From Pseudobdellovibrionaceae bacterium (GTDB taxonomy: Bacteria > Bdellovibrionota > Bdellovibrionia > Bdellovibrionales > Bdellovibrionaceae): a DNA stretch of 60,001 bases. The notes below the pieces were generated by a model. The model saw nothing but the letters and a program-made list of their open reading frames with translations, made no database searches and was not told the origin of the DNA. The DNA lies in contig JABWCN010000027.1 in the NCBI GenBank assembly GCA_013359135.1, positions 1 through 60,001 on the forward strand. The letters are read 5' to 3'. A program made the position numbers and the translations under genes. This document shows positions 2,607 through 43,206 of the stretch, one piece after another (position 1 is the first letter of the stretch; every line of letters starts with the position of its first letter).

Positions 2607-5600
2607 TTACGGATTCAGAATATATTGAAAAATTTGACCTTTATAGTTACTAATCAATAATGTGTTAGCATCCTTCCACGTCATTTGATTTGCTCCATAA
2701 GTAAAACTTCCCATGGTTGATGTATAAGGGTACAAATTCGTTGAATTATTACACCAAGCTTTTCCACTACTTACATCCATACAATAAAGTCCACCGTTGG
2801 TATCCAAAAGAAAAATCTGGCTTAAATCTTCTTTTAAAATAAAGTTTCTAATTGCACTAGTAGCAACCATTGTGGGTATTGTTGTCAGAGTGCTTGAAGC
2901 TGGATTTGTAGGATTAGTAATATAACGAATATAACGATCTCCACTGCTTAAGAAATATAACCTATCCTGAGATGCCACGTACTGAATTGAACATGCTGCT
3001 GAGTTAATACAGCCATAGTATAGTGCGGCTGCTTGAACTCCTCCAGCAACAGTCACATCAGCAGACATGGCTGAAGACTGTGAGTATAAAAATGATCCAC
3101 CCATGACTTTAGTATTCAGGGCATTAGTAAAATCTAAGAATCGAATTTGAGGATTTGGAATATAACTTGGGCTTTGGAAATACCCACCAATTAAAAAAGC
3201 ACCGTCTGCACCTTTTAAAGCTAAATTTTGGTAACCACCATAAACATACAAGCTCGAAGTTGCTGGTGCGCCACCACTTTCCCACCATGCACTTGAAGCA
3301 TTAGCCTTAACCACGATTTGATTCGAAGAATTGACTTGTACAAGCTGGTTACTTGCTCTCATCCAAGGCAATCCGTTACTATCAAATGCCAGGGCTTTTC
3401 CATTTCCTCCAGCGTACGGAATTCCCATACTGATCAACGAACTAATTGTCGTTCCAGTTGGTGCAGCATAGCTGTTACCTTGCTGATTTCCCCATAATGT
3501 TCTGTAAATAGAATCAGATTCATTAATACGACCAAAAACCATGGAGGGAGAAACTAAATATAAGCCAGCTGGAAAAGCTGTTGTATTTGATTCCGTTGAT
3601 TTTTTATAATAAACTCCACCTATCAAACCACGGATTAAACCTTTTTCTAACCCATCACCATAGAAAGGGAAAGAACCAAAAATAGTGCGCACTTGTGAAT
3701 TTGAGTCAACGTAACGAATTCTGAACCCGTTAGGAGCATTGTTTCTGATTCCATCAGTAAAATAAATTTCACCATTTGAATCAAAGGTTATTCCACTATC
3801 AACATAAACACAACTCGAGGTAACATCCACACCATCTTGAACACAACTCCCTGTAGCCCCGGTAGAAGATACCACAGTCACCAATGTCTCTCCACCATTA
3901 CTACTGGAATTTACTGGCGTAAAATATCCCAAACTGCCACCCGTAACAGAACGATAAATTCTATTATTTTTACGATTATATGAAATAACTGCCATTCCAG
4001 AGTTAGCACCAATATTCGCAGAATAAACAACTCCATTAACAATTTTTACAGGGTTAATTCCGTAGCCTGCAAAATAAATTAGATTAGGGTTAACAGCCGC
4101 AATCATCGAAAGTTGAGAATAGTTATTAACTCCGAACAATGGCTGAGACAAAGCAGATTGCCCATAGGTCATTGTTCCAGTAGTGCAATTACCTGCTAAT
4201 GCTGTCACTGATCCAAAAGTTCCATCACTATTCAATGTAGACATCATGAGTTTTTTAGCAGTTAAGTATGTTGGTGCCGCTGTATTACAATCTGTAATAA
4301 AATAAAAATTTCCGCTTGCATCTAACTCCATGGCTGCTGGTGAAATATAAACAGTTGTTGCCGTGGCTGAAGTTGAGTTATCCGTTCCTCCGCCTGCAAA
4401 AAATTGGACTTGCTTAGTATCCAAATTAATCTTGTATATTTTTGCACCACCACTAAATGAATTCGAATAATACATTATACCATTACTATCTATTAACATT
4501 CCAGCTGAACCAGCAACGGCCACGCGTGAAGTTGATGACAATGTTCCGTTATCAGGAAGATTTAAAGTTCCATTAGGTATAAATGTAGTGACTTTACCAG
4601 TTTGAATATCTAGCTTTCTAATACCAGTACCATGATCTAAAACGTATAAATCGTTTGTCTTCGGATTAATAGCAATGGCTTTTCCTCCACTCGATGCTCC
4701 ATCGCTATACAATGAGGCAGACATACCACTGCCATTATCTCCTTTATCAGTGCTTCCAGCAAACACGCTCCAGCTTCCAGTGTTTTGGGGTTGAGACATG
4801 ACAGCAACACTGCTGTTACCAGCAATATCTCGAGCAACGACTTTGATAATAAAATAACCAGTAGTTGGAGCTGTAAAGGACCCATAAGTGCCACTTGCAG
4901 AAGTCGGATTGTTGGATAAACTTCCTAGCCATGTAACATTGCTCAAAACAGAAGAGTCAGCTTTAGAAACAATATCATACCAAGTGGTTCCATTAGTAGA
5001 ATAAGATAAAGAAATGGGATTGTTATCAAGTCCAACTAATGAATTGGCTGACCAAGTTACAGTGACTGCTTGATTTAAAGAATAAGTATTAGTTGAATTC
5101 ACAGTATTATAAACATTTATAGATGTTACCTGAGGAGGACTACTCGCCTGCCTGATGATAGAACTATAGTTGACATTATTTGTTCCCGTAGTTGGTGACA
5201 TTGATGTGATATTTCCGACAGAATCTTTACCCCAAACACAGATTTTTTTAACTCCATCTACAGGAGAAATAGTGAAAGAAAAATTTTGTGTTGAAGAAGT
5301 CCAACTTAACCAGCCAGCATCAACAAATTCCGACTGACAATCATTGGTTCCTGTTGCTGCAGCTGCCAACTTTACATATAAATAACTAGCACTTAAAGCA
5401 TCACTAAGATTTACTTGGACATTAACAACTGAAGCTCCAGCATAAGCAGCTCCGTTATTAATAATAACACTAGATAAAACTGGAGGCGTACTGTCGATAA
5501 CAAATAAGTTTGAACTTGCTGTAGCCGTATTTCCAGCGGCATCCGTCAATGAAACTCTAACGGCTGCTGAGGAGGTATCTACTAATCCCAAAGAAACCGA

Positions 5601-8600
5601 ACTCAAAGTATAATTTTGTGAAGAATTACTTCCTGAGTTTGCACTGACACTACCCACTGACTGCCAAGTAGAACCATTGGTTGTAAGTTGCACACTAAAA
5701 GTAGAACCACTTGCGACATTAGCTTCAGTTAGAATCCATGAAATAGATAAATTATTACTGCCTCCTCTTTGGGAGTTTATTGAATTTATTGATATTGATG
5801 GGGCTATTGAATCTTTGATTAATACTCTACTTACGACTGTTGAAATATTTCCAGCAGTATCTAATTGAGATGCGTTAATTGTAAATTGCCCATCAGTTAA
5901 TGATGCCACATCTATAAATGTTGACCAAGTTCCTGAGGAGCATTGTAAACTTCTAGTCACTGCACCAGTAAGTTGAACAACAGTATCACTTTCAGTACAA
6001 GTCCCAGCTAAATTATAATTTCCTAACTGAGTAACAGGAATGACATATCCATTACTTGCTGGGGAACTAATTGAAACAACTGGCGCAACCAGATCAATTG
6101 TCCAGCTCTCTGAACTAGGGGCTGAACTGTTTCCAGCGGAATCTATAGCTTTAATATTGAAAGTATGTGCTCCTGTTGTTAATGCAGAGTAAGTACTTGG
6201 GCTTGTGCAGACAGAATAAGCTCCACCATCAATTGAACACATATACTGCGCAACTGATCCTCCACCGCTATCTGTTGCTAAAAATGAAAAACTAGCAGTC
6301 GTTGAATTAACAAAACTGTTTGGTCTTGATGTTACATTCAAAGTTGGTGGTGTCTGATCTATTGTCCAAGAATAAATTAAACTCGTACTTACATTTCCCG
6401 CATTGTCTGTTGCAATGACTGCCAACTGATGGCTACCTGGAGTTAATGAACCATATGATTTAGGTGATGTACAAGTCTGAAAAGCTTGTCCATCAAGAGA
6501 ACACATGGAATTTGCAATGTTATTTAAATTGTTATCGCTTAACGAAAAAACAAAATTTGCACTGGAAGAATTATCTAATAAATTAGGTGCACTCACCAAA
6601 GTCACTACAGGAGGAACCAAGTCTACCTTCCAACTGTAACTGTATATAGCACTTGTGTTGCCGGCAGTATCAGTTGCTTTAATATAAAAGTTATGAATCC
6701 CGTCTGTTAAATTGACTATTGAGTGTGGACTGGAACAATTAGAGTATGCAGAACTGTCAATCTTGCACTGATAACTTGCTATACTACCTCCGCCTGTATC
6801 AGTCGCTTCAAAAATAAACGCTGCAGAGCTATTTCGAGTCATTGCATCTGGAAAAGAATTCACGGCTAAAGTTGGTGGTGCTAAGTCAATAGTCCAATGG
6901 TAGTCAACATTAGAACTACGATTTGTATTATTATCGATTGAACGAACAGAAAATACATGAACTCCTGATGTAAGCGACGAATAACTTATTGGGGAACTGC
7001 AATTTGTCCAACTAGCTCCATCTATGCGGCATTCATAACCAATAACACTTCCTCCAGGAGGAGGGTTTGCAATAAATTCAAATGTCGCTACTGTTTGATT
7101 AGTAACTAAATTTGGTGCCAAATTTATTGATGCTAATGGTGTAGTTAAATCCACGCTCCAATTATAAACTACAGCTTGTCCAATATTACCAGCTGTATCT
7201 ATAGATCTTACTTGAAATGAATGATTACCTGAACTTAAACTAGAATAAGTAATTGGACTAGAACAAGCAGAAAAGCTAGCACCATTATATTTACATTCAA
7301 AATGATCTACAACTCCACCACCAGTATCCATCCCGTTAAAACCAAAAGTTGCTTGAGTTGAATTTGATACACTTAGTGGTTGTAAAGTTAGGTTAACTGT
7401 TGGAGCTGTGGTATCAACAGTCCAAGTATAATTCGCCAGAGATGAAATATTACCTGCAATATCCGATGATTTAATTGTAATATGATGCAATCCTGGGGAC
7501 ACACTCCTAACTACTGGTGTTGAACAAACTTGAAATGTCTCTGAATCCCAACTACAAAAGCTTTGACCAACCCCAGAGCCAGTACTATCTAAAGCTGAAA
7601 ATGCGAAACTAGCTAATAGCTCATTAGTAACTATTGAAGGACTAGAGGTAATTGTGAGTACTGGTGGTTGTGTATCTACTCTCCATGACTTGCTAACAAC
7701 AGCTGAGGCGTTTCCAGCAAGATCTACTGCTTTGACCTCAAAATTGTGTATCCCATCAGCAAGATTACTTAGAACTCTAGGACTACTACAAGTTGAATAT
7801 ACAGAATTGTCTATCTGGCATTCAAAATGGCTAATTCCTGAAGCTGAATCGCTTGCGGAAAAAGAAAATGTCATAGCTGTGAGATTAGTGTTTGCAGAAG
7901 GCACATTATTAACTGTTAATGTTGGAGCAATAGTATCAATATTAACATCTAAAACTGATGGCTGGGAAGACACTGTGCCAGAGGCATCTTTTGCCCAAAG
8001 ATATAAAGTCTTATTCCCCTCTCCAGAAGTTTGAAAATTATAACTCAAACTTTGAGAAATGTTTTGAAAGCAAGATAAATTAAAATATGAATTTGGGGGT
8101 GGTTCAGTTGAATGAGTTTCACTCAATGCTAAGTAAGAAAATGACTTACAATTTTCTAACTGACTACCTGTCTGGATAGCTAAAATTATACTTCTAGAAT
8201 TAATAAACCCTGATGCTCCAATTGATGGACTTTGAAGAGTAAATATTGGTGCTTTGGGGAGCACATTGTTATCTACCTCAACCGTCCATGAAAGTGTTTT
8301 TGTTAAACTGTCGTCTTTAAATGTATTGCCGTTTTTTTCACCAATTTTAACTGAAAGAATATGTTTTCCTTGTTGATTTGCACCAGGTATAAAACTGACA
8401 TATTCCAAACTTCCAATAACTTGAGAATCCCATTTCCATTCATAGAGCACAGAATAGTTTTTATTAAAATGATTAGTCTTAACAGAGAAAGTTGAGCTAA
8501 CTAACTCAGACAAAACGTTAGGAATCGTTTCAGAAATAATTTCAGGAGTAGCTTGAGATAAAATGTTAGGCTCAGCCCCAAAAATCTCTGAAAATTTTAT

Positions 8601-9182
8601 AGCTAAATTTTGATTTAAGGATAAGGCTTCATAAGCCCCCTCTAAAGTTTTGGCATCTTTCAAGCTAGTTAATAAAACATCTATTTGGTTAGGATTCGAT
8701 TGTAGTACGCTAGCAAACTTAACCCTTAAAGAAGTGTTCATTAAATATCCAACTATTGTAGAACCAGGTGAAATATTTTGTTCCTTTGCACTAGTGACAG
8801 GTCGAGAGTAGACTTCGGAATTACATCCTTTCAACTGAATCACTAATGGGTCTTTAGATATTTTCCCTATAAACTGAATATTTTTATTTTTTAGATTGAA
8901 ACTGTAGGTGTAATCCATACCTAAGGACACGACATCTAATTCCGGTTCAATGCGATTCCCATCCTCATCTAACTTATACAAATAAACCTTAGGTTCACTA
9001 CAGGAAAGTATTTTATTTTTTTCACTACTAGATGAATATCCAGTAGTGAAAAAACTTACTGTTCCTTGAATTGTGCCTGAAGAAACTTGAGGAATATTCA
9101 GAGAGTTCTGGATACAACCAGAGACAAACAAAAAACAATTAACTAATAATAATAATTTAAAGTGTTTCTTGGATTTTATCAT
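2607..9182 (-). CDS. Giant surface lipoprotein with tandem Ig-like domains and a C-terminal NHL propeller
   Basis: 2191 aa. The N-terminal signal ends in L-F-V-S-G-C (lipobox). After a unique region to about residue 310 come Ig-like domains. Seven of them (about residues 415-1030) are close copies of some 88 residues, with two Cys about 8-9 residues apart and a D-x-A-G-N turn; two or three more diverged domains follow. The C-terminal 700 residues contain NHL-like motifs (D-S-N-G, G-I-Y-Y-T-D type blades) with further paired Cys. The architecture fits a long surface-exposed stalk holding a beta-propeller, such as an adhesin or sensor, but no ligand motif is recognised. It is the first gene of a two-gene unit with the smaller NHL lipoprotein. 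Confidence 0.88.
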   Translation of the reverse strand: MIKSKKHFKLLLLVNCFLFVSGCIQNSLNIPQVSSGTIQGTVSFFTTGYSSSSEKNKILSCSEPKVYLYKLDEDGNRIEPELDVVSLGMDYTYSFNLKNKNIQFIGKISKDPLVIQLKGCNSEVYSRPVTSAKEQNISPGSTIVGYLMNTSLRVKFASVLQSNPNQIDVLLTSLKDAKTLEGAYEALSLNQNLAIKFSEIFGAEPNILSQATPEIISETIPNVLSELVSSTFSVKTNHFNKNYSVLYEWKWDSQVIGSLEYVSFIPGANQQGKHILSVKIGEKNGNTFKDDSLTKTLSWTVEVDNNVLPKAPIFTLQSPSIGASGFINSRSIILAIQTGSQLENCKSFSYLALSETHSTEPPPNSYFNLSCFQNISQSLSYNFQTSGEGNKTLYLWAKDASGTVSSQPSVLDVNIDTIAPTLTVNNVPSANTNLTAMTFSFSASDSASGISHFECQIDNSVYSTCSSPRVLSNLADGIHNFEVKAVDLAGNASAVVSKSWRVDTQPPVLTITSSPSIVTNELLASFAFSALDSTGSGVGQSFCSWDSETFQVCSTPVVRSVSPGLHHITIKSSDIAGNISSLANYTWTVDTTAPTVNLTLQPLSVSNSTQATFGFNGMDTGGGVVDHFECKYNGASFSACSSPITYSSLSSGNHSFQVRSIDTAGNIGQAVVYNWSVDLTTPLASINLAPNLVTNQTVATFEFIANPPPGGSVIGYECRIDGASWTNCSSPISYSSLTSGVHVFSVRSIDNNTNRSSNVDYHWTIDLAPPTLAVNSFPDAMTRNSSAAFIFEATDTGGGSIASYQCKIDSSAYSNCSSPHSIVNLTDGIHNFYIKATDTAGNTSAIYSYSWKVDLVPPVVTLVSAPNLLDNSSSANFVFSLSDNNLNNIANSMCSLDGQAFQTCTSPKSYGSLTPGSHQLAVIATDNAGNVSTSLIYSWTIDQTPPTLNVTSRPNSFVNSTTASFSFLATDSGGGSVAQYMCSIDGGAYSVCTSPSTYSALTTGAHTFNIKAIDSAGNSSAPSSESWTIDLVAPVVSISSPASNGYVIPVTQLGNYNLAGTCTESDTVVQLTGAVTRSLQCSSGTWSTFIDVASLTDGQFTINASQLDTAGNISTVVSRVLIKDSIAPSISINSINSQRGGSNNLSISWILTEANVASGSTFSVQLTTNGSTWQSVGSVSANSGSNSSQNYTLSSVSLGLVDTSSAAVRVSLTDAAGNTATASSNLFVIDSTPPVLSSVIINNGAAYAGASVVNVQVNLSDALSASYLYVKLAAAATGTNDCQSEFVDAGWLSWTSSTQNFSFTISPVDGVKKICVWGKDSVGNITSMSPTTGTNNVNYSSIIRQASSPPQVTSINVYNTVNSTNTYSLNQAVTVTWSANSLVGLDNNPISLSYSTNGTTWYDIVSKADSSVLSNVTWLGSLSNNPTSASGTYGSFTAPTTGYFIIKVVARDIAGNSSVAVMSQPQNTGSWSVFAGSTDKGDNGSGMSASLYSDGASSGGKAIAINPKTNDLYVLDHGTGIRKLDIQTGKVTTFIPNGTLNLPDNGTLSSTSRVAVAGSAGMLIDSNGIMYYSNSFSGGAKIYKINLDTKQVQFFAGGGTDNSTSATATTVYISPAAMELDASGNFYFITDCNTAAPTYLTAKKLMMSTLNSDGTFGSVTALAGNCTTGTMTYGQSALSQPLFGVNNYSQLSMIAAVNPNLIYFAGYGINPVKIVNGVVYSANIGANSGMAVISYNRKNNRIYRSVTGGSLGYFTPVNSSSNGGETLVTVVSSTGATGSCVQDGVDVTSSCVYVDSGITFDSNGEIYFTDGIRNNAPNGFRIRYVDSNSQVRTIFGSFPFYGDGLEKGLIRGLIGGVYYKKSTESNTTAFPAGLYLVSPSMVFGRINESDSIYRTLWGNQQGNSYAAPTGTTISSLISMGIPYAGGNGKALAFDSNGLPWMRASNQLVQVNSSNQIVVKANASSAWWESGGAPATSSLYVYGGYQNLALKGADGAFLIGGYFQSPSYIPNPQIRFLDFTNALNTKVMGGSFLYSQSSAMSADVTVAGGVQAAALYYGCINSAACSIQYVASQDRLYFLSSGDRYIRYITNPTNPASSTLTTIPTMVATSAIRNFILKEDLSQIFLLDTNGGLYCMDVSSGKAWCNNSTNLYPYTSTMGSFTYGANQMTWKDANTLLISNYKGQIFQYILNP
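6090..7940 (-). repeat. Seven tandem about 264-bp repeats encoding Ig-like domains
   Basis: Within the giant lipoprotein the translated sequence repeats about every 88 codons with the pattern C-x(8-9)-C-S/T-S/T-P, then G-x-H-x-F, D-x-A-G-N and W-x-V/I-D. DNA copies are diverged, so this is an old expansion rather than recent slippage, but recombination could still change copy number. Confidence 0.8.
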
Positions 9183-18666: not shown

Positions 18667-19549
18667 AGTTTTCCTTTTCTTTCTCTTCATCGATGATGAA
18701 GTAAAATTCGGTGCCTGATTTCACCTGAATAATGTTGGGAGATTTTTTCATTTCTTCTAAGTAGGCTTCGCTCTGATCAAGTGCTGCCTTTGATGCTCCA
18801 GCAAGGGCTGCGTCTCTGGTTGTTGGTTTTTGGGTTGAAAAATACGATCCGCTGGTATTTTCTCTAAGCCCATCAGCCATACCACCTAAAAACCCAAGAC
18901 CCATGGCCATCATCATTTTTTTAGACCTTGTGCCAACGATTGAGCCTTTGATGCCTTGGATTTTGTCATCGCTTTCAAAAGCCTGTGCCCTGACTTTATA
19001 GGTTTCACCAGTCGGAAAGACTATTTTTTGAAACTCAATAAAAAGTCGATCTTCACCGGATTTACCAACACCGATCAGCGTTGAATTTTCGGGGATCAGT
19101 GGTTCGTTATCCACAAGTACGGGTTTTAAAATTTTAGCTTTAACCAAACCATCGGTGCCGCCGCTGACAAGTACGGCTTTACCTTCAGTTCCGACTGGAA
19201 AATTCAGAAGTGACCGTAGACTTATTACATTGATAAGATCCTTTGGCGGAGAATACCTGCCACCAGATTTTTGGTTAAGCAGCTTGTCTTTACCAATAAG
19301 TCCGGGGCTCGCAAGTGGCACCTCATACCTAAACTCTGGTGAGCCGACAGGTTTTGAATCAATTCCAACCACTTTTCGTTTTGAAAAAATCACGAATAAG
19401 TAAATTGAAATGATGGCCGAAATTACTACGAAACTTAAGAGCTTCAAGTACCTGGTATCAAGGTTAGTGTCCTTAAAGTATTTACTCATTCCGATGGTTT
19501 GAAATCCTTCGTCGGGTTTAACTTCTACTTTTTGTACAGATTCTGACAT
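18656..19549 (-). CDS. VirB10/TrbI-like T4SS channel protein
   Basis: 297 aa. It has a short cytosolic N-terminus, one membrane segment (about 35-57) and a periplasmic domain with the TrbI pattern (G-T-E-G-K-A-V-L-V, I-P-E-N-S-T-L-I-G, I-V-F-P-T-G-E-T-Y). An antenna-like hydrophobic stretch (M-M-M-A-M-G-L-G-F-L-G-G-M) follows, then a closing V-K-S-G-T-E-F-Y-F-I-I. VirB10 bridges both membranes and gates the outer-membrane pore. It lacks the long Pro-rich region of many homologues. It directly follows the VirB9-like gene. Confidence 0.88.
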   Translation of the reverse strand: MSESVQKVEVKPDEGFQTIGMSKYFKDTNLDTRYLKLLSFVVISAIISIYLFVIFSKRKVVGIDSKPVGSPEFRYEVPLASPGLIGKDKLLNQKSGGRYSPPKDLINVISLRSLLNFPVGTEGKAVLVSGGTDGLVKAKILKPVLVDNEPLIPENSTLIGVGKSGEDRLFIEFQKIVFPTGETYKVRAQAFESDDKIQGIKGSIVGTRSKKMMMAMGLGFLGGMADGLRENTSGSYFSTQKPTTRDAALAGASKAALDQSEAYLEEMKKSPNIIQVKSGTEFYFIIDEEKEKENYEK

Positions 19550-22103: not shown

Positions 22104-24518
22104 TTAGCTTGCTCCATGTGGATATTTTTCTGCTAGATACTTAAATAGGCTTAAGGTGTCAGGGTAATCAGCTTTAAGCTCGTCCATTTTTTTCATATCG
22201 ATTGGGTCAGTCGTTGATAGCCAGTATTCAAGTGGTGTGCTTTCAATTTTAACAACCTGTTTGTCGTCACCCGAAATCAAAAATGCCTCGGAAAAATATC
22301 CTTTTTTCGATGTAACTGAATCAATCAAGTCCATCTCACGGTCATTTAGGGATAGAACTTTTTGAACAAGCTCTCGTCGACTCGTGTTTTGACGTAAGAT
22401 CCATTTTACAGATGAGCATGAAAAAATAGCTTTTGCAATTTTTGAATCCGCAAAGTCTTCAATAGATTGCGAAATCGCAATGGCTGAAGCCATATATTTT
22501 CGAAATGTTCGAAAGACACTTTCAATGAGCTTCGCCCCCGCGTCGTTATCTAACAGGGTCCAGCTTTCATCAAAAATGACAAATTTTTGATTGATCTTAT
22601 CTTTTTGAACTTCTCGCCAAATTAGATCCGTGATCAAAAATAAACACACAGCCTGTAGATCTGGAAGGTTCTCTAATCCTTTAAGATCAAAGCACACAAT
22701 TTTTTTATCGAGCGATAAGTTTGTTTTCTGATCGATGAACTTACCGTAGGGTGTGTCACCGCACCAAGGCTCTAGAATTTTTCCCATTTTTTGCACTGAT
22801 TCATCACTACTTTCAAGAAGCCTGTTTTTTAGATCTGAAAGTTTTGCTTCGGGATTTGTTTGAATGATGGATTTAATCATCATTTCAATCTCGGCCCGTT
22901 GAAGTTTTCGAATACCTTTTTCGTCCTCTTCTTTGGTCATGAGCTCTACAAGACTAGTCAGGAACTTAATTTTCTGATCCTTTGCTTCAATATCAGTGCT
23001 TGATAAATCAAACGGGTTAATCGAGATTTGAGAGTCTGCACCTATTGGAATATATTGACCATTAAAATTCTCAGTCGTTTTTTTGTAACTACCACCGACA
23101 TCGATGATGAAAACCTGTGGTGACTCTTTCATCAAATTTGAAATTAAAATATTTCCAAAGTATGATTTACCCGCACCACTTGAACCACTAATGAGCTGAT
23201 TGTAGTTAGTGTGCGTCGGCGAAAATGGATCAAAACCAATTAGACCTTTTGATTTATTTTTTAGTAGCACACGAGGCTTAGTATGCCCCAGCCACTCGCC
23301 ATAAATCGGCAAAAAGTCAGCCAGCACTTCGGTATTCATTGGGCGCGTCCGCTCGGTGCATCTCGCGTTTGGAAGCGACACTTCATAAAAAATGTAGCTC
23401 GCAGCAATGGTTTCTAAAATTCCTTCAGCTCCTGAAATTTCACGAAATTTTGATAAGACCTCGGCGCACTGCGCATCGAGTTCATCAGGGTCGCTATTAC
23501 GAAGCACTACATTTAGACTTACAGAAAATATCTTAGTTTCACCGCTGACTCGTTTAGAAAGAACAGCTTCAATGTCTTGAAGTTTTGCGGCGCTTTCCAA
23601 ATCCTGAACACCTTTTTTACCCGAGTACATGGCATAGGCAATTTGCCTCTGCGTTTTTAATGCGAAGTCCTCCTTCATCTGATCAAGCACATTGATCGTC
23701 AAATACAAAGATGAGTTAAAAGGAAGATTTTTGAGTTTTTCAGCCATCGTCGAGAATGTCTTTTCAGGCATCATCTTAAGCGAAATAACACGGTGATGAA
23801 CGCCATTGATTGTAAAGCCTTTGTGACTCACGATCAAATCACTTAGAATCAGATGATCTCTAAAGTCTTCTGCGTTGTATCCTCCCGGTGGTAGTACATA
23901 TCCGGGGTTCCACTGGTCGTAGAGTATTTTAAAAATTTCGTCTTCACTCAGACGCCTTGATTTTATTCCAAGAGATTCTAGTTTTTTCTGCATATCATCT
24001 TCAAGCTGCGAAAATGACTTAAGTTCAGGATCTAAAATAGCGCGTGAGAAAATATCTACTTCAGGAGTCGGCTTTCGCATGATGAAACTAAAAATTCTTT
24101 TCCAAAACGATTCATTTTTATTTTGGGGCTTGGTAATAAATTTTCTTCGAATTACAAAAAGTCGCTTAACTCTGATGATCTCATTTTTCTGATCTTGGAG
24201 CTGAATTTTTCGAACCCGTTCGGATAAAAGTTCCCGGGTGATTTCATCAGCCCCTTCAACCATTTGCTTTTGATGAGCATCAATAATTTTATCAACACCG
24301 CCTGTCGTCATTTGCACAAATTGAACATTGAGTCCTTCCGGCAGTGAATTCAGGAAATGACATTCTTGTGATTTAAGAGAGTTTAGGTATTCATCTGTTT
24401 TGCAAGAAATGTCTTTAGCCTCTATTTCAAAAATTGAAGCGAGCGAAAAGTCCTTAAAAATAAGTTTACCTTCCTCAAAGCCCCAGACCTGTAATTTATC
24501 AACTAGGTTTTTGCTCAT
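22104..24518 (-). CDS. VirB4/TraC-family T4SS ATPase
   Basis: 804 aa. The N-terminal half is the VirB4 CagE/TrbE domain. The C-terminal half is a RecA-like ATPase with Walker A S-G-A-G-K-S-Y (about 444) and Walker B F-V-I-F-D-E-S-W (about 648). It also has the family signature I-A-x-A-I-F-S-C-S-S near the end. It powers pilus biogenesis and substrate transfer at the inner membrane. The ATG at 24518 has AAAGGAATAAGTC upstream and overlaps the VirB3-like gene by 20 nt. Confidence 0.93.
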   Translation of the reverse strand: MSKNLVDKLQVWGFEEGKLIFKDFSLASIFEIEAKDISCKTDEYLNSLKSQECHFLNSLPEGLNVQFVQMTTGGVDKIIDAHQKQMVEGADEITRELLSERVRKIQLQDQKNEIIRVKRLFVIRRKFITKPQNKNESFWKRIFSFIMRKPTPEVDIFSRAILDPELKSFSQLEDDMQKKLESLGIKSRRLSEDEIFKILYDQWNPGYVLPPGGYNAEDFRDHLILSDLIVSHKGFTINGVHHRVISLKMMPEKTFSTMAEKLKNLPFNSSLYLTINVLDQMKEDFALKTQRQIAYAMYSGKKGVQDLESAAKLQDIEAVLSKRVSGETKIFSVSLNVVLRNSDPDELDAQCAEVLSKFREISGAEGILETIAASYIFYEVSLPNARCTERTRPMNTEVLADFLPIYGEWLGHTKPRVLLKNKSKGLIGFDPFSPTHTNYNQLISGSSGAGKSYFGNILISNLMKESPQVFIIDVGGSYKKTTENFNGQYIPIGADSQISINPFDLSSTDIEAKDQKIKFLTSLVELMTKEEDEKGIRKLQRAEIEMMIKSIIQTNPEAKLSDLKNRLLESSDESVQKMGKILEPWCGDTPYGKFIDQKTNLSLDKKIVCFDLKGLENLPDLQAVCLFLITDLIWREVQKDKINQKFVIFDESWTLLDNDAGAKLIESVFRTFRKYMASAIAISQSIEDFADSKIAKAIFSCSSVKWILRQNTSRRELVQKVLSLNDREMDLIDSVTSKKGYFSEAFLISGDDKQVVKIESTPLEYWLSTTDPIDMKKMDELKADYPDTLSLFKYLAEKYPHGAS

Positions 24519-24837
24519 GACTTATTCCTTTGTTATAATTTTTAAATACAGTTCGTTTGTTGGAGCGGCCAAATGCGAACTGGACCTTGGAATCAAAATG
24601 AAATTTCAAGAGATGTTGTAGATAGTTTTCAGGTTTTCCGCGCTTCATGATTCTGATAAAGAGGGCCAAAGCTGTGCTTGGCCCCCATGTAAAGAAGAAC
24701 TTGTATTGGATTGATCCCAATATGAAGTTTAGAAATGCAAGAACTGTGAAAACTAAAAACAAATCGACAATTTCAAATCCGAACACCATCGATTTTTTAT
24801 CTAAACATCGATAAACGGGCGATGTTTTTAGTCCCAT
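24499..24837 (-). CDS. VirB3/TraL-like T4SS membrane protein
   Basis: 112 aa. A short polar start (T-S-P-V-Y-R-C-L-D-K-K) typical of VirB3/TraL is followed by two adjacent membrane segments (about 24-42 and 45-65) and a basic tail with F-x-F-G-R-S. GGGGTTCAACT precedes the ATG. It is followed by, and overlaps, virB4, the canonical order. Confidence 0.83.
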   Translation of the reverse strand: MGLKTSPVYRCLDKKSMVFGFEIVDLFLVFTVLAFLNFILGSIQYKFFFTWGPSTALALFIRIMKRGKPENYLQHLLKFHFDSKVQFAFGRSNKRTVFKNYNKGISHEQKPS

Positions 24838-24851
24838 AGTTGAACCCCTTT

Positions 24852-24890
24852 TTAGTGAATTAAACTTCTGACAAGTGACACAATCGACTC
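24852..24890 (-). CDS. VirB2-like pilin, 3' exon (beyond the group II intron)
   Basis: Thirteen codons reading E-S-I-V-S-L-V-R-S-L-I-H-stop. They are in frame with the pilin 5' exon once the intron is removed and give the usual short hydrophobic/basic end of a VirB2-type pilin. The exact junction is uncertain by a few bases, because GTGTG and a second GTG offer alternative 5' ends. Confidence 0.7.
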   Translation of the reverse strand, partial: ESIVSLVRSLIH

Positions 24891-24929
24891 AGTGAGTTGG
24901 CCGGAGCATTTCAGCTCCAGCCCCTCGCA

Positions 24930-24963
24930 GAACCGTACTTGAACCTCTCGATTCATACGGCTC
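24930..24963 (-). ncRNA. Group II intron domain V
   Basis: 34 nt on the minus strand. It starts GAGCCGTATG, has a GAGA tetraloop in its middle and ends GTACGGTTC. The 5' strand pairs with the 3' strand and contains the catalytic AGC triad. This matches the canonical size and form of domain V. Confidence 0.9.
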
Positions 24964-24973
24964 CCATTGTTCT

Positions 24974-26239
24974 TCATCGTCCAACTCCATGAAACGTCTT
25001 CCAAGTTGCAAACAGATTTGGTTTTTCTTGCATAATGCGAAGTAACCACTGATATGCTTTGGCCGACTTTCTATGAAGCGGTTTATATTTCCGTTGCGCC
25101 CATCTTTGTAAGATGAGATTCATCTGATGGTTCATAAACTTGAGTTCGTTACGGCCAAAGGCGCCATAGTATTGTATCCAACCGCGCAGAACTGGATTGA
25201 ACATTTTTGATAAATCCTCCAACTCTTTTTCAGTTTTGTGAGTGAAATACCAAGAACGTATTGTCTCCTGTATTTCTTTACGCGCCTCTTTCGAAATTGC
25301 TGGGACAAAGCCATCAAAGATTTTCCCAGAAGGGCCTTTGACGGATCGTCGCCTGAATGTAAAACCAAGGAAGTCAAAACTTACGGCTGGTGGATTCTTG
25401 GCCATATAAAATTTTGATCGGTCCCTGAAGACATCTGAACAGTAAATTATTTTTGTTTTCAATGGGTGCAATTCTAATTTACAAAGCTCCAGTCTTTCTC
25501 TGATCGTGTGTTTTACAAACTGAGTTTCTTTATGCGTCTGACAATGAACAACAATGTCATCTGCATAACGCTCAAATTTCAATTTCGGAAATCGCTTTTC
25601 AAACCAATCATCAAATGCATGATGAAGGAATATATTTGCGAGTAGAGGGCTGATAACTCCTCCCTGCGGCGTTCCTTTAGTTCGTTGAACTAAAGTTCCA
25701 TCTGGCAACTGCATTGAAGCCTTCAACCATCTTTCGATGTACAAAAGAACCCATGATTCTTCTGTGTGTTTCTTCACTGCGCGCATAACTAAATCGTGAT
25801 CTAAATTGTCAAAGAAACCTTTGATATCTAAATCAAGTACCCAGTCATACTCGTGGCATCTTGTTTTACAAAGACCCACTGCTTGCAGTGCTGACTTCTT
25901 TGGTCTGTAACCAAATGAATCGTCGTGAAATTCAGGATCAGTAATTGGCTCTAAATAAAGTTTAACTACAGCTTGAGCAATTCTATCGCTGACAGTTGGA
26001 ATCCCAAGTAGTCGCTTGGTCCCATCTCTTTTGTCGATTTCACAACCTCTGACCGCTGGCGGGAAATAAGTCCCAGCAGACATTCGATTCCAAATTTTAT
26101 AAAGATTCTTTTTCAAATCCTTTTCAAAATCTTCGATCGACTGCCCATCAATACCATGCGAACCTTTATTGGCTTTCACTAACTCATATGCCCTCCATAC
26201 AGATTGTTTGGAAATATCGAACGACTTGGTGTTATTCAT
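24974..26239 (-). CDS. ltrA: Group II intron reverse transcriptase/maturase
   Basis: 421 aa; AGGAGGAGCCA precedes the ATG. The RT domain has W-V-L-D-L-D-I-K-G-F-F-D, G-T-P-Q-G-G-V-I-S-P-L-L-A-N and the catalytic Y-A-D-D (about 225). A maturase X domain follows (L-R-G-W-I-Q-Y-Y-G). There is no HNH endonuclease domain, as in several bacterial intron classes. It should promote intron splicing and retrohoming. The gene is intact, lies in the intron's domain IV and its 3' end reaches domain V. Confidence 0.95.
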   Translation of the reverse strand: MNNTKSFDISKQSVWRAYELVKANKGSHGIDGQSIEDFEKDLKKNLYKIWNRMSAGTYFPPAVRGCEIDKRDGTKRLLGIPTVSDRIAQAVVKLYLEPITDPEFHDDSFGYRPKKSALQAVGLCKTRCHEYDWVLDLDIKGFFDNLDHDLVMRAVKKHTEESWVLLYIERWLKASMQLPDGTLVQRTKGTPQGGVISPLLANIFLHHAFDDWFEKRFPKLKFERYADDIVVHCQTHKETQFVKHTIRERLELCKLELHPLKTKIIYCSDVFRDRSKFYMAKNPPAVSFDFLGFTFRRRSVKGPSGKIFDGFVPAISKEARKEIQETIRSWYFTHKTEKELEDLSKMFNPVLRGWIQYYGAFGRNELKFMNHQMNLILQRWAQRKYKPLHRKSAKAYQWLLRIMQEKPNLFATWKTFHGVGR

Positions 26240-26783
26240 TGGCTCCTCCTGCTAAAAGCAGTTGACCAACAACAACACCCGAACAACGCAACCCCTTCGC
26301 TCCATCTGCTTTCGCAGACTTCATCACTACTATGGGTTGCTCTGACCCTTTGCTCGGCATTGGTACTCTGGCTCTTACGGTTTCGTCCGCTTGAGCTTCT
26401 CCCTTAACATCCGAGCCGAAGGTTCCCGCGTTCCGCAATAAAGCCTGAGTCAAGATCATGCTGTCTCCACGCCGGATGTCGTTTAGCTCAGTAACCAGGT
26501 GACCGCTAAACTTATCCCAGCAAAGGGCTCTTTCGCTGGTTTTGACACCGTTTACGGATTCTCGACGCGACAACGACAGTTCAGTTTTATTCATCTTCTT
26601 GACTCCTTCCTGATGCATCAGGTGCATCGTTTCCTCAACGCTCACGACCGTGGCTTTTGACCACAGCCGCTTGAGGTGGATTAAAACCAGTGCCTGAACA
26701 CCGATTTTGAGGGACCTACCCTCATCTTTATTGCAGCACCAAACAGTCATGACTTACGCCAAACCTGTTTGCTCGCGGCACAC

Positions 26784-27065
26784 GGCTCCAAAACCAATCA
26801 CGGCGCCTAGGATTGCATACACTAAATGGGATCTGGCATTGGGTTGCCCCGTAATGAAGCTAAATCCCGCAAAAACGAGCCCGCACATTGCAGCTAGTGG
26901 AAGTACAGTTCCGACCAGCTTTGTCTGCACAGCGGCAAGCGAGCTTTCAACGCTTGCGAAAGCAAGCATCGGTACAAGAAAAAGGGTCATGACGCTGATG
27001 AGTTTCATAGTCGTGTTGATTTTGTTTTTGATATTTTTTTCGTTCGAGTTTTTCAAATTTTTCAT
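26784..27065 (-). CDS. VirB2/TrbC-like conjugative pilin, 5' exon
   Basis: 94 codons from the ATG at 27065 (GGAG 9 nt upstream). A long charged N-terminus and signal peptide (F-L-V-P-M-L-A-F-A, cleavage about 39) precede the mature pilin. The pilin has two hydrophobic helices (L-V-G-T-V-L-P-L-A-A-M-C-G-L-V-F-A and H-L-V-Y-A-I-L-G-A-V-I-G-F-G-A). Without splicing, the frame runs nine codons into the intron and stops (V-C-R-E-Q-T-G-L-A), losing the C-terminus. This is the major subunit of the transfer pilus. Confidence 0.82.
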
Positions 27066-27565: not shown

Positions 27566-28345
27566 TTAAGCAGCTGCGGCTTGGGTTATAAGTTCTGGGT
27601 TTATGAGAGCTGATTTAAGTTTGAAAACTGTGGCATCGATCACTTGATCAACGGTGTTCACTCCGACTGAGCATTTCCGAGCAATTTCGTTGATTGAAAA
27701 ACCGCACCAGTAGCGTAGGTACACATACTGGCGCGCGCGCAAGGAGGAAGCGCGGAAGAAACTACTGACTTCTTCGATGGGGTGATTCAGTAACTCTTTG
27801 TCATAATTTTCGGGCTTATAGGCTCTACTCTTTTTGAGGGGGCCAAGCTTCTTGGCTTCCCAGACCGAGTTGTTCTGGGCGGGCTCAAAAAACTTTGCAT
27901 CCCTCATAAGGTGTTGGGTGGTCCACAGTGCTGCGGATTTATTGACTTTGAGACGTGAAAGGGCTTTAAATTTGTTTCTGGACACAGAAGTCTTGGAGCA
28001 ATTTAGCTCAAAAGCGATCTGTCTTTCGGTTTTCCCTTCAAAGAAAATTTTTCTTAGAACAGTTTCTTGTTCGGGTGAAAGTAGCTTTAAAAATTGATCG
28101 CAATAGCTCTGTAATTGTGGACAGGTGTTGTGGCCATACAAATCAAATACGGACTGGCTCATACGCTCGCCGAGAATTTCGTAGTGCTCAGGTTTAACTA
28201 AAACTTCCCGAAAGCTTCCTTCGTACCATTTCAGATACGTTTCCCAGGTAGCCTCATCCCAAGATTTGCTAATTTCTTTTAAATGCTCGGTCGGAATTTC
28301 TACTCCCGACGATGTTAGCCATGGCTGATTTAATTTTATTTTCAT
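27566..28345 (-). CDS. Regulator with two sigma-region-4-like HTH domains
   Basis: 259 aa from the ATG at 28345 (GAGGGGTAAAT upstream). Two separate HTH segments resemble sigma-70 region 4. The first is S-P-E-Q-E-T-V-L-R-K-I-F-F-E-G-K-T-E-R-Q-I-A (about 100-150). The second is R-A-R-Q-Y-V-Y-L-R-Y-W-C-G-F-S-I-N-E-I-A-R-K (about 200-245). No region 2 is seen, so it is more likely a transcription activator than a full sigma factor. As first gene of the transfer unit it probably controls it. The upstream region holds inverted repeats. Confidence 0.75.
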   Translation of the reverse strand: MKIKLNQPWLTSSGVEIPTEHLKEISKSWDEATWETYLKWYEGSFREVLVKPEHYEILGERMSQSVFDLYGHNTCPQLQSYCDQFLKLLSPEQETVLRKIFFEGKTERQIAFELNCSKTSVSRNKFKALSRLKVNKSAALWTTQHLMRDAKFFEPAQNNSVWEAKKLGPLKKSRAYKPENYDKELLNHPIEEVSSFFRASSLRARQYVYLRYWCGFSINEIARKCSVGVNTVDQVIDATVFKLKSALINPELITQAAAA

Positions 28346-28417
28346 ATTTACCCCTCGCGGTGAATTGCGTTGATTCGCGAAGGACGTAGATTTCAAAATA
28401 GAATCCGCATGCCACAA

Positions 28418-41894: not shown

Positions 41895-43206
41895 CAGGGT
41901 GTTGAAAAAGTCCTAATTGACCACTATTTCGATAATTGTTTAAATGGCGACATGCGTGGATACAAAGAAAATCAACAAGAAGATATGTTCAGCTACATTT
42001 CAATGGAGGATTCCATCCCCAAGAAACATCCTCTTCGCAAAATCAAGGCAATGGTGGATACTCTTCTCGATGAGATGTGGTCAGATTTTGACGGTTTGTA
42101 TTCTGGAACTGGTCGGCCGAGTATTCCACCAGAGCAAATATTAAAGGCCCTTCTTCTGCAAGTATTGTTTACGATTCGCAGTGAACGACAGATGGCAGAG
42201 CAACTTCGCTATAATTTGTTATATCGATGGTTCGTGGGTCTTGGAATGAGTGGCGCGGCTTGGGATCACAGCACCTTTTCAAAAAATCGAGAAAGACTAA
42301 TCAAGGGTGGTGTCGCTGATAGATTTTTTAGTCTTGTCATCGAGTTTGCAAGTGTAAATGGCCTTGTATCAGATGAACACTTTTCAGTGGATGGAACACT
42401 GATTGAGGCCTGGGCAAGTCTGAAGACTTTCCTTCCAAAAGAATCTGAAAACAAAAAAGATGACGACGACAAGTCTGACCACAATCGATGGGTTGATTTC
42501 AAAGGCGAGAAAAGATCCAACGAGACCCATGAGTCGAAGACAGATCCGGAGTCGAAGTTGTACACAAAATCAGGAGGTCAGGCCGCCAAGCTTCAGTTCA
42601 TGGGTCACGTGACGATGGAAAATCGAAATGGTCTGGTGGTCGACACCCGCCTAACTCAAGCGACAGGAACTGCTGAGCGTGAAGCCGCAGCTGAAATGGC
42701 AATGGCCTTGAATCAAGGTTCATCTTTGGGAGCAGACAAAGGTTACGATACGGCCGATCATGGGGAAGATCTGAGTCAACTGAATATTAAATCCCACGTC
42801 GCTCAGAATATTCATGCCCGCAAAAAAATCAGTTCCATCGACGGCAGAACAACACGGCACGCAGGATACAAAGTGAGTCAGCGCAAGCGAATGTGCATCG
42901 AAGAAATTTTTGGCTGGGCTAAGACAATTGGCCTGCTACGGAGACCGATGCTGAGAGGAACTGAAAAACTGGGATGGATGTTCAGCTTTGTGATGAGCGT
43001 TTATAACCTTGTGCGAATTAAGAATTTATTGGCGGCATGAGTTGGAATAATACCAGAAAATCCTCCAACAGCGATGGATTTGATATCGGCTGACGTAAAT
43101 CGAAGCCAAGTTTAAGTCGGTGAGATTCCAAAAAAAAAATAAAAATAAGTTTTCGAAAAAAATAAAATAGAAATTTGATCAAATAGGATGGATTTTCAAC
43201 ACCCTG
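41895..43206 (+). mobile_element. Complete IS5-family insertion sequence
   Basis: 1312 bp. The terminal inverted repeats begin CAGGGTGTTGAAAA at both ends. The element is flanked by direct repeats CTAA (41891-41894 and 43207-43210), matching the YTAR target of the IS5 group. One intact transposase gene. It landed in intergenic DNA and appears recent. Confidence 0.93.
41952..43040 (+). CDS. IS5-family DDE transposase
   Basis: 362 aa. The N-terminal DNA-binding region contains P-R/S-x-P-P-E-Q-I-L-K-A-L-L-L-Q. The DDE residues lie in F-S-V-D-G-T-L-I-E-A-W, G-A-D-K-G-Y-D-T and I-E-E-I-F-G-W-A-K-T. The sequence is intact. It has no strong ribosome site, which is common for IS genes. Confidence 0.93.
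   Translation: MRGYKENQQEDMFSYISMEDSIPKKHPLRKIKAMVDTLLDEMWSDFDGLYSGTGRPSIPPEQILKALLLQVLFTIRSERQMAEQLRYNLLYRWFVGLGMSGAAWDHSTFSKNRERLIKGGVADRFFSLVIEFASVNGLVSDEHFSVDGTLIEAWASLKTFLPKESENKKDDDDKSDHNRWVDFKGEKRSNETHESKTDPESKLYTKSGGQAAKLQFMGHVTMENRNGLVVDTRLTQATGTAEREAAAEMAMALNQGSSLGADKGYDTADHGEDLSQLNIKSHVAQNIHARKKISSIDGRTTRHAGYKVSQRKRMCIEEIFGWAKTIGLLRRPMLRGTEKLGWMFSFVMSVYNLVRIKNLLAA

Follow-up and report, generated by a model that had tools for sequence, protein, structure and literature searches.

The conjugative pilin gene of a T4SS in a 60,001-nt stretch of Pseudobdellovibrionaceae DNA (the window, meaning the whole stretch analysed) is interrupted just before its last 12 codons by a group II intron of 1,893 nt, GTGTG...CTCACT (24891..26783, minus strand). 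The presence of the intron in this gene is beyond chance, as judged from its fold z scores, from an empty site in G063, another genome of the same genus, and from equally long introns (1,893 nt) at this pilin codon boundary in two further genomes, G031 (locus L034, Bdellovibrionota KLAP115) and G068 (locus L035, KLAP26), both of which are metagenome assemblies. We consider it highly probable that this is an En-minus, RmInt1-like intron that has retrohomed precisely to the GFGA|ES site of the pilin, is transcribed with the operon and must splice, that it has invaded at least two T4SS lineages, and that it is primarily selfish.

Group II introns are known from relaxase, coupling-protein and transposase genes, and no description of such an insertion in the gene of a conjugative pilin turned up in the literature that we searched, with partial coverage. 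Each pilus takes many copies of pilin, and the intron thus probes the extent to which a protein required in large amounts can rely on splicing.

Architecture of the interrupted pilin gene

The interrupted gene has the features of a TrbC/VirB2 pilin. Its 5' exon (26784..27065, minus strand) contains a TrbC domain (Pfam PF04956, E 1.7e-8) and matches 20+ pilins by tblastn, a GGAG ribosome-binding site lies upstream of the start codon, and a signal peptide (...AFA|SVES) and two hydrophobic helices can be read from the sequence by eye; the T4SS operon context agrees with this assignment. The frame, which spans 27065 to 26784, ends in ...VIGFGA (GGA GCC), directly before the GTGTG of the intron at 26783, and read-through of the unspliced frame gives GFGA-VCREQTGLA*. 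GFGA is among the best-conserved segments of the protein in 29 intron-free pilins. Beyond the intron, the 3' exon (24852..24890, minus strand; GAG TCG ATT GTG TCA CTT GTC AGA AGT TTA ATT CAC TAA) encodes ESIVSLVRSLIH followed by TAA, matches the C-terminus of more than 100 pilins and that of the uninterrupted G063 pilin, from which it differs by one V/I change, and raises the TrbC model score from 26.4 bits, which is below the cut-off of 27.9, to 33.3 bits. The original prediction had 13 codons completing the pilin; the tail is indeed encoded after the intron, but by 12 codons, the thirteenth being the stop (24890..24852).

The junction is revealed by G063, whose T4SS VirB4 is 97% identical to that of the window and whose unbroken pilin shows 98.9% identity to the predicted spliced product. 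There the gene reads GGC TTT GGT GCC GAG TCG, an empty site (GGTGCC|GAGTCG) without an extra T, which defines the junction with single-base precision and assigns the final T of CTCACT to the intron. This site matches the boundaries proposed beforehand from the letters of the window, a GTGTG start after GFGA and an E-S-I tail after the intron.

Only 14 bases separate the end of the 3' exon from the start of a virB3-like gene (24499..24837, minus strand), which is directly downstream of the pilin, is assigned by a weak Pfam match (DUF3487) with synteny and identity to G063, and is probably in the pilin's operon. A virB4/traC-like ATPase gene (22104..24518, minus strand; P-loop_TraG and TraC_F_IV, with TIGR02746 below cut-off) follows, and a TrbI gene, identified by Pfam, also adjoins the pilin locus. 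Beside the T4SS are genes for a tyrosine integrase (14128-15255) and an FtsK-like coupling protein (17281-18690), as well as a very weak MobC-like match (16363-17271); among the proteins tested there was no strong match to a relaxase. The combination of T4SS, integrase and coupling protein suggests an integrative conjugative element. Upstream of the pilin, 27566-28417 encodes a 283-aa protein with sigma-70 region 4 matches, two stretches of which pass Sigma70_r4_2, and which could regulate the transfer operon. The window also contains a very large ORF of 2191 aa (2607-9182) and, outside the T4SS, a DDE transposase gene (DUF772/DDE_Tnp_1; 41952-43040).

The ribozyme is recognizable in both halves of the intron, of which the window's own genome has a single copy. 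The domain I core (26608..26723, minus strand) matches Rfam RF01999 (group-II-D1D4-2) with 103.3 bits (E 1.1e-21), while RF00029 matches 24965-24891 on the same strand with 59.4 bits (gathering 40), its last base being the inferred intron end. The domain V catalytic hairpin (24930..24963, minus strand) displays compensatory changes across 11 introns. Domain VI (24891..24926, minus strand) is predicted to fold with a basal GAG/CTC helix and an unpaired AA 7-8 nt from the intron end, and the bulged A that lies 7 nt from its 3' end, at 24897, is the putative branch point; in the G031 copy a GGAGC/GCUCC pairing is replaced by GAGGC/GCCUC. Among the three pilin introns and their relatives, compensatory pairs are found in domain I, in the EBS1 stem (CCAGC/GCUGG to CCAAC/GUUGG) and in DV/DVI, and the non-ORF ribozyme parts of the three pilin introns are 95-98% identical, evidence that the ribozyme too is under purifying selection. 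Compared with shuffled sequences, the 5' ribozyme half folds with a z of -5.4 and DV-DVI with a z of -6.5. The 5' end, GUGUG, fits GUGYG.

The intron encodes an RT/maturase of 421 aa (24974..26239, minus strand) that scores above cut-offs for RVT_1, GIIM and TIGR04416 (413.6 bits for the last), retains an intact YADD motif at residues 225-228 and has no HNH endonuclease match in Pfam. It evolves under strong purifying selection, with dN/dS values of 0.05-0.07 among the three pilin introns (these values and the dS values below are from a simple Nei-Gojobori count). No relatives of the maturase were found in viral contigs at the thresholds applied. The sense-direction intron, canonical domain V, domain VI-like hairpin and intact maturase that had been read from the sequence alone are all upheld by the Rfam matches, the folding, the empty site and the protein families.

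Exon recognition and probable dependence of the pilin on splicing

The registers of EBS1 and EBS2 were set by comparing ~30 related introns, inserted at different sites, for columns complementary to their 5' exons; several of these introns are copies from one Streptomyces genome and so are not fully independent. EBS2 (AAUCCG, intron 224-229; 26555..26560, minus strand) pairs with IBS2 (-13 to -8) at 5/6 positions in the window and at 6/6 and 4/6 in the other pilin copies, compared to a class mean of 3.9 and a background of 2.6. By contrast, the EBS1 position given by the covariation register (GAGCCC, intron 254-259; 26525..26530, minus strand) pairs with IBS1 (GGAGCC, the final six nucleotides of that exon; 26784..26789, minus strand) at 3/6 positions against a background of 2.96, and the best pairing within the loop is 4/6. 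Positions -6, -5 and -1 pair, and -7, -4, -3 and -2 are unpaired. The EBS/IBS pairing that had been put forward as a check on the intron is thus present for EBS2-IBS2 and at background level for EBS1-IBS1. IBS1 reads GGAGCC, GGAGCC and GGCGCC in the three pilin copies and EBS1 pairing is poor in all of them; they are the sole exceptions among 34 introns, the other 31 showing EBS1 loop pairing of 5-6/6.

Other partners were considered for this contact and rejected. The best complements to IBS1 elsewhere in the intron (intron 339, GGCUUU; 367, GGCUC) belong to elements that are largely conserved whatever the IBS1 of the relatives and look structural. Pairing of the EBS1 loop with -12 to -7 (GGNTTT) was likewise discarded, as was pairing with an internal exon-1 GGGCTC, which is absent there in G031 and G068 and for which the match count is near the shuffled expectation. 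Covariation among the related introns gave no standout column for EBS3.

The EBS1 mismatch raises a concrete question, namely the means by which the site is recognized. Excision of RmInt1 needs EBS1-IBS1, as changes at -4 to -2 left ~13% and changes at -7 to -5 left none detectable (PMC3123198). Judged by this requirement, the poor pairing in the window indicates that splicing may be weak or that another contact may be used. One tentative answer, which we regard as doubtful, is a dedicated pilin-site intron lineage that recognizes its target without normal EBS1-IBS1 pairing, through EBS2, the maturase or some other contact; weak pairing would then keep splicing low and protect the spliced pilin mRNA from renewed attack, and pilin would be splicing-limited in conjugative elements of Bdellovibrionota.

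In the mechanism that we favor, a polycistronic virB2-virB3-virB4 transcript of the T4SS would carry the intron, and the maturase, translated from unspliced RNA, would bind the intron and aid its splicing. The ligated mRNA would yield full-length pilin and the unspliced mRNA a pilin minus its last 12 residues. Splicing is probably required for full-length pilin, and pilus output would depend on it. That the intron does splice and is mobile is argued for by the compensatory changes in the ribozyme, the low dN/dS of the maturase and the exon-2 frame, which is intact in all three carriers; part of the exon-2 conservation could be older than the insertion. The pilin site would be the home of a selfish intron and any brake on conjugation a by-product.

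A regulatory role for the intron is conceivable by analogy. However, we think it unlikely that the intron is a true brake or switch on conjugation, retained for limiting transfer, with poor splicing or intron attack on the spliced mRNA lowering pilin. Such a function has precedents in Ll.LtrB (PMC6003770) and RmInt1 (PMC4238363) and the poor EBS1-IBS1 pairing predicts weak splicing, but the same poor pairing would also weaken attack on spliced mRNA. Moreover, the intron shows no sign of regulation or benefit, and most elements of the family among the matches listed are intron-free and the close relative G063 is empty, a distribution that fits a neutral or costly parasite.

Less probable still is a reading in which the intron went into an ectopic site and splices too weakly to matter, leaving the pilin effectively truncated and its role to other T4SS copies. 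EBS1-IBS1 pairing at background in 3/3 copies speaks for this, as do two other intact pilins of the family in the same genome (G000), at C41:13386-13616 and C64:34577-34801, each with a VirB4 match nearby (loci L002 and L032 being the window's own); these could supply pilin in trans. Opposed to it are a ribozyme that is 95-98% conserved with compensatory changes, a maturase under purifying selection, an exon-2 frame kept in three lineages and repeated precise acquisition at one site.

Probable spread of the intron among conjugative elements

The three pilin introns share pairwise identities of 89.5%, 89.8% and 96.1%, and they reside in distant elements, the VirB4 proteins of G031 and G068 being 42% and 46% identical to that of the window and 76% identical to each other. 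For the G031-G068 pair, dS is 0.21 in the maturase vs 1.31 in virB3 and 1.35 in pilin exon 1; for the window and G031 it is 0.73 in the maturase, with virB3 and virB4 saturated. In the VirB4 tree, the window and the empty G063 form a pair (100/100) that is nested among six intron-free elements. The intron state changes twice on this tree, and 0% of bootstrap trees have a single change. The silent sites and the tree together make at least two independent precise insertions at one pilin site the simplest account, and the silent-site gap between G031 and G068 suggests a third. Near-identical introns at one site in distant elements thus suggest spread by repeated invasion of the pilin gene.

The flanking exons bear on the route. 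Over the last 30 bases of exon 1, identity is 0.80 between the window and G031 and 0.77 between the empty G063 and G031; over the first 30 bases downstream the corresponding values are 0.60-0.67 and 0.47-0.67. The flanks of two carriers are scarcely closer to each other than those of a carrier are to the empty site, which argues that the intron moved precisely, as in retrohoming, and comparison of carrier-carrier with carrier-empty identity (window, G031 and G063) showed no clear co-conversion tract at the exon borders. The three filled sites and the empty G063 constitute a presence/absence polymorphism with precise insertion; the pilin sites of G066 and G033 are empty as well. It is improbable that homologous recombination of the pilin gene, rather than retrohoming, carried the intron from one element to another. 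Conjugative elements do recombine and the weak EBS1-IBS1 pairing would accord with such a route, but similarity drops at the exon borders, where the window-G031 values are close to those for G063-G031, and a clear conversion tract is missing. Retrohoming is therefore the route that we infer. Three one-site copies in distant elements, with an empty sister, provide a natural experiment on homing.

Relatives of the intron occupy other settings. The YADD codons of other RT genes host related introns (L036, L040, L043, L045, L047, L088 and L127), an intron-in-intron arrangement that is a common target of the class. A Ca. Megaera relative lies within the RT gene of another intron, inside an F-type transfer region, while no annotated conjugation gene adjoins the intron in the plasmid relatives examined, from Serratia, Escherichia, Salmonella, Enterobacter and Serratia symbiotica. 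In Streptomyces sp. NBC_01549, a related intron is present in many near-identical copies at separate sites (L049-L052, L077 and L080), which are useful for EBS/IBS mapping.

The related introns and uninterrupted pilins also bear on the 3' end. The textbook end of a group II intron is AY. Here the end is CU, with a pyrimidine as the last base, preceded by C rather than A. In related introns the end, GAC or RCY, comes three bases past the CTC at the base of domain VI, and for introns inside the YADD codons of other RT genes (L036, L040, L043, L047 and L088) this 3-nt rule restores the YADD-F/L frame. An AY-type end (intron ...CTCAC, exon TGAG...) would put a stop after GFGA and is excluded by the empty site and the YADD-lodged relatives. 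A search of 369 genomes from the phylum with the spliced pilin listed more than 100 matches; among these the pilin ends at residue 75 in only three, the window, G031 and G068, all intron carriers, and the remaining listed pilins, where the match includes the C-terminus, extend to query residues 82-87. The comparison with intron-free relatives suggested at the outset therefore yielded a precise empty site and, among the matches listed, no pilin that naturally ends where the intron starts. A natural pilin end at this point, with the 12 downstream codons coincidental, could appeal to the AC end of the usual AY rule, which would join as GCC TGA, a stop, but is next to impossible, as it is refuted by the G063 site without the extra T, by the listed intron-free pilins reaching residues 82-87 and by the YADD-codon introns, which join in frame only by the same 3-nt rule.

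Relation to known mobile introns

The mobile group II intron Ll.LtrB/Ef.PcfG of Lactococcus and Enterococcus likewise interrupts a gene essential for conjugation, although that gene encodes the relaxase rather than the pilin and the host element families differ. LtrA has an endonuclease domain, whereas none was detected in the window maturase. Related genes in different elements carry Ll.LtrB/Ef.PcfG at a single conserved position, the intron copies resembling each other far more closely than their exons do (PMC5072309), and Ll.LtrB cuts relaxase mRNA and conjugation 3-4 fold (PMC6003770). On pAW63, the group II introns B.th.I1 and B.th.I2 also interrupt conjugation genes that have uninterrupted homologues on related plasmids, as here, but these are an orf14-like gene and a VirD4 homologue, not a pilin gene, and B.th.I2 is without an ORF (PMC1196294).

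RmInt1 of Sinorhizobium meliloti (IIB3/class D) shares an En-minus IEP with the window intron, and its IBS2 (-13 to -9) and IBS1 (-7 to -1) agree with the covariation registers used here (PMC3123198). It also resides in a mobile element and its host gene is shortened by intron stop codons, as in the window, but that gene is an IS transposase (PMC3123198, PMC4238363). A limiting effect of RmInt1 on this host insertion sequence has been reported (PMC4238363). An S. meliloti plasmid intron protein of 419 aa, which may not be that of RmInt1, is 51.5% identical to the window maturase. RmInt1 has good EBS1-IBS1 pairing and the window intron does not; because of this failed pairing, we do not assign the intron to class D. 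Rather, it is a mobile group II intron, RmInt1-like in its working, with a new target gene.
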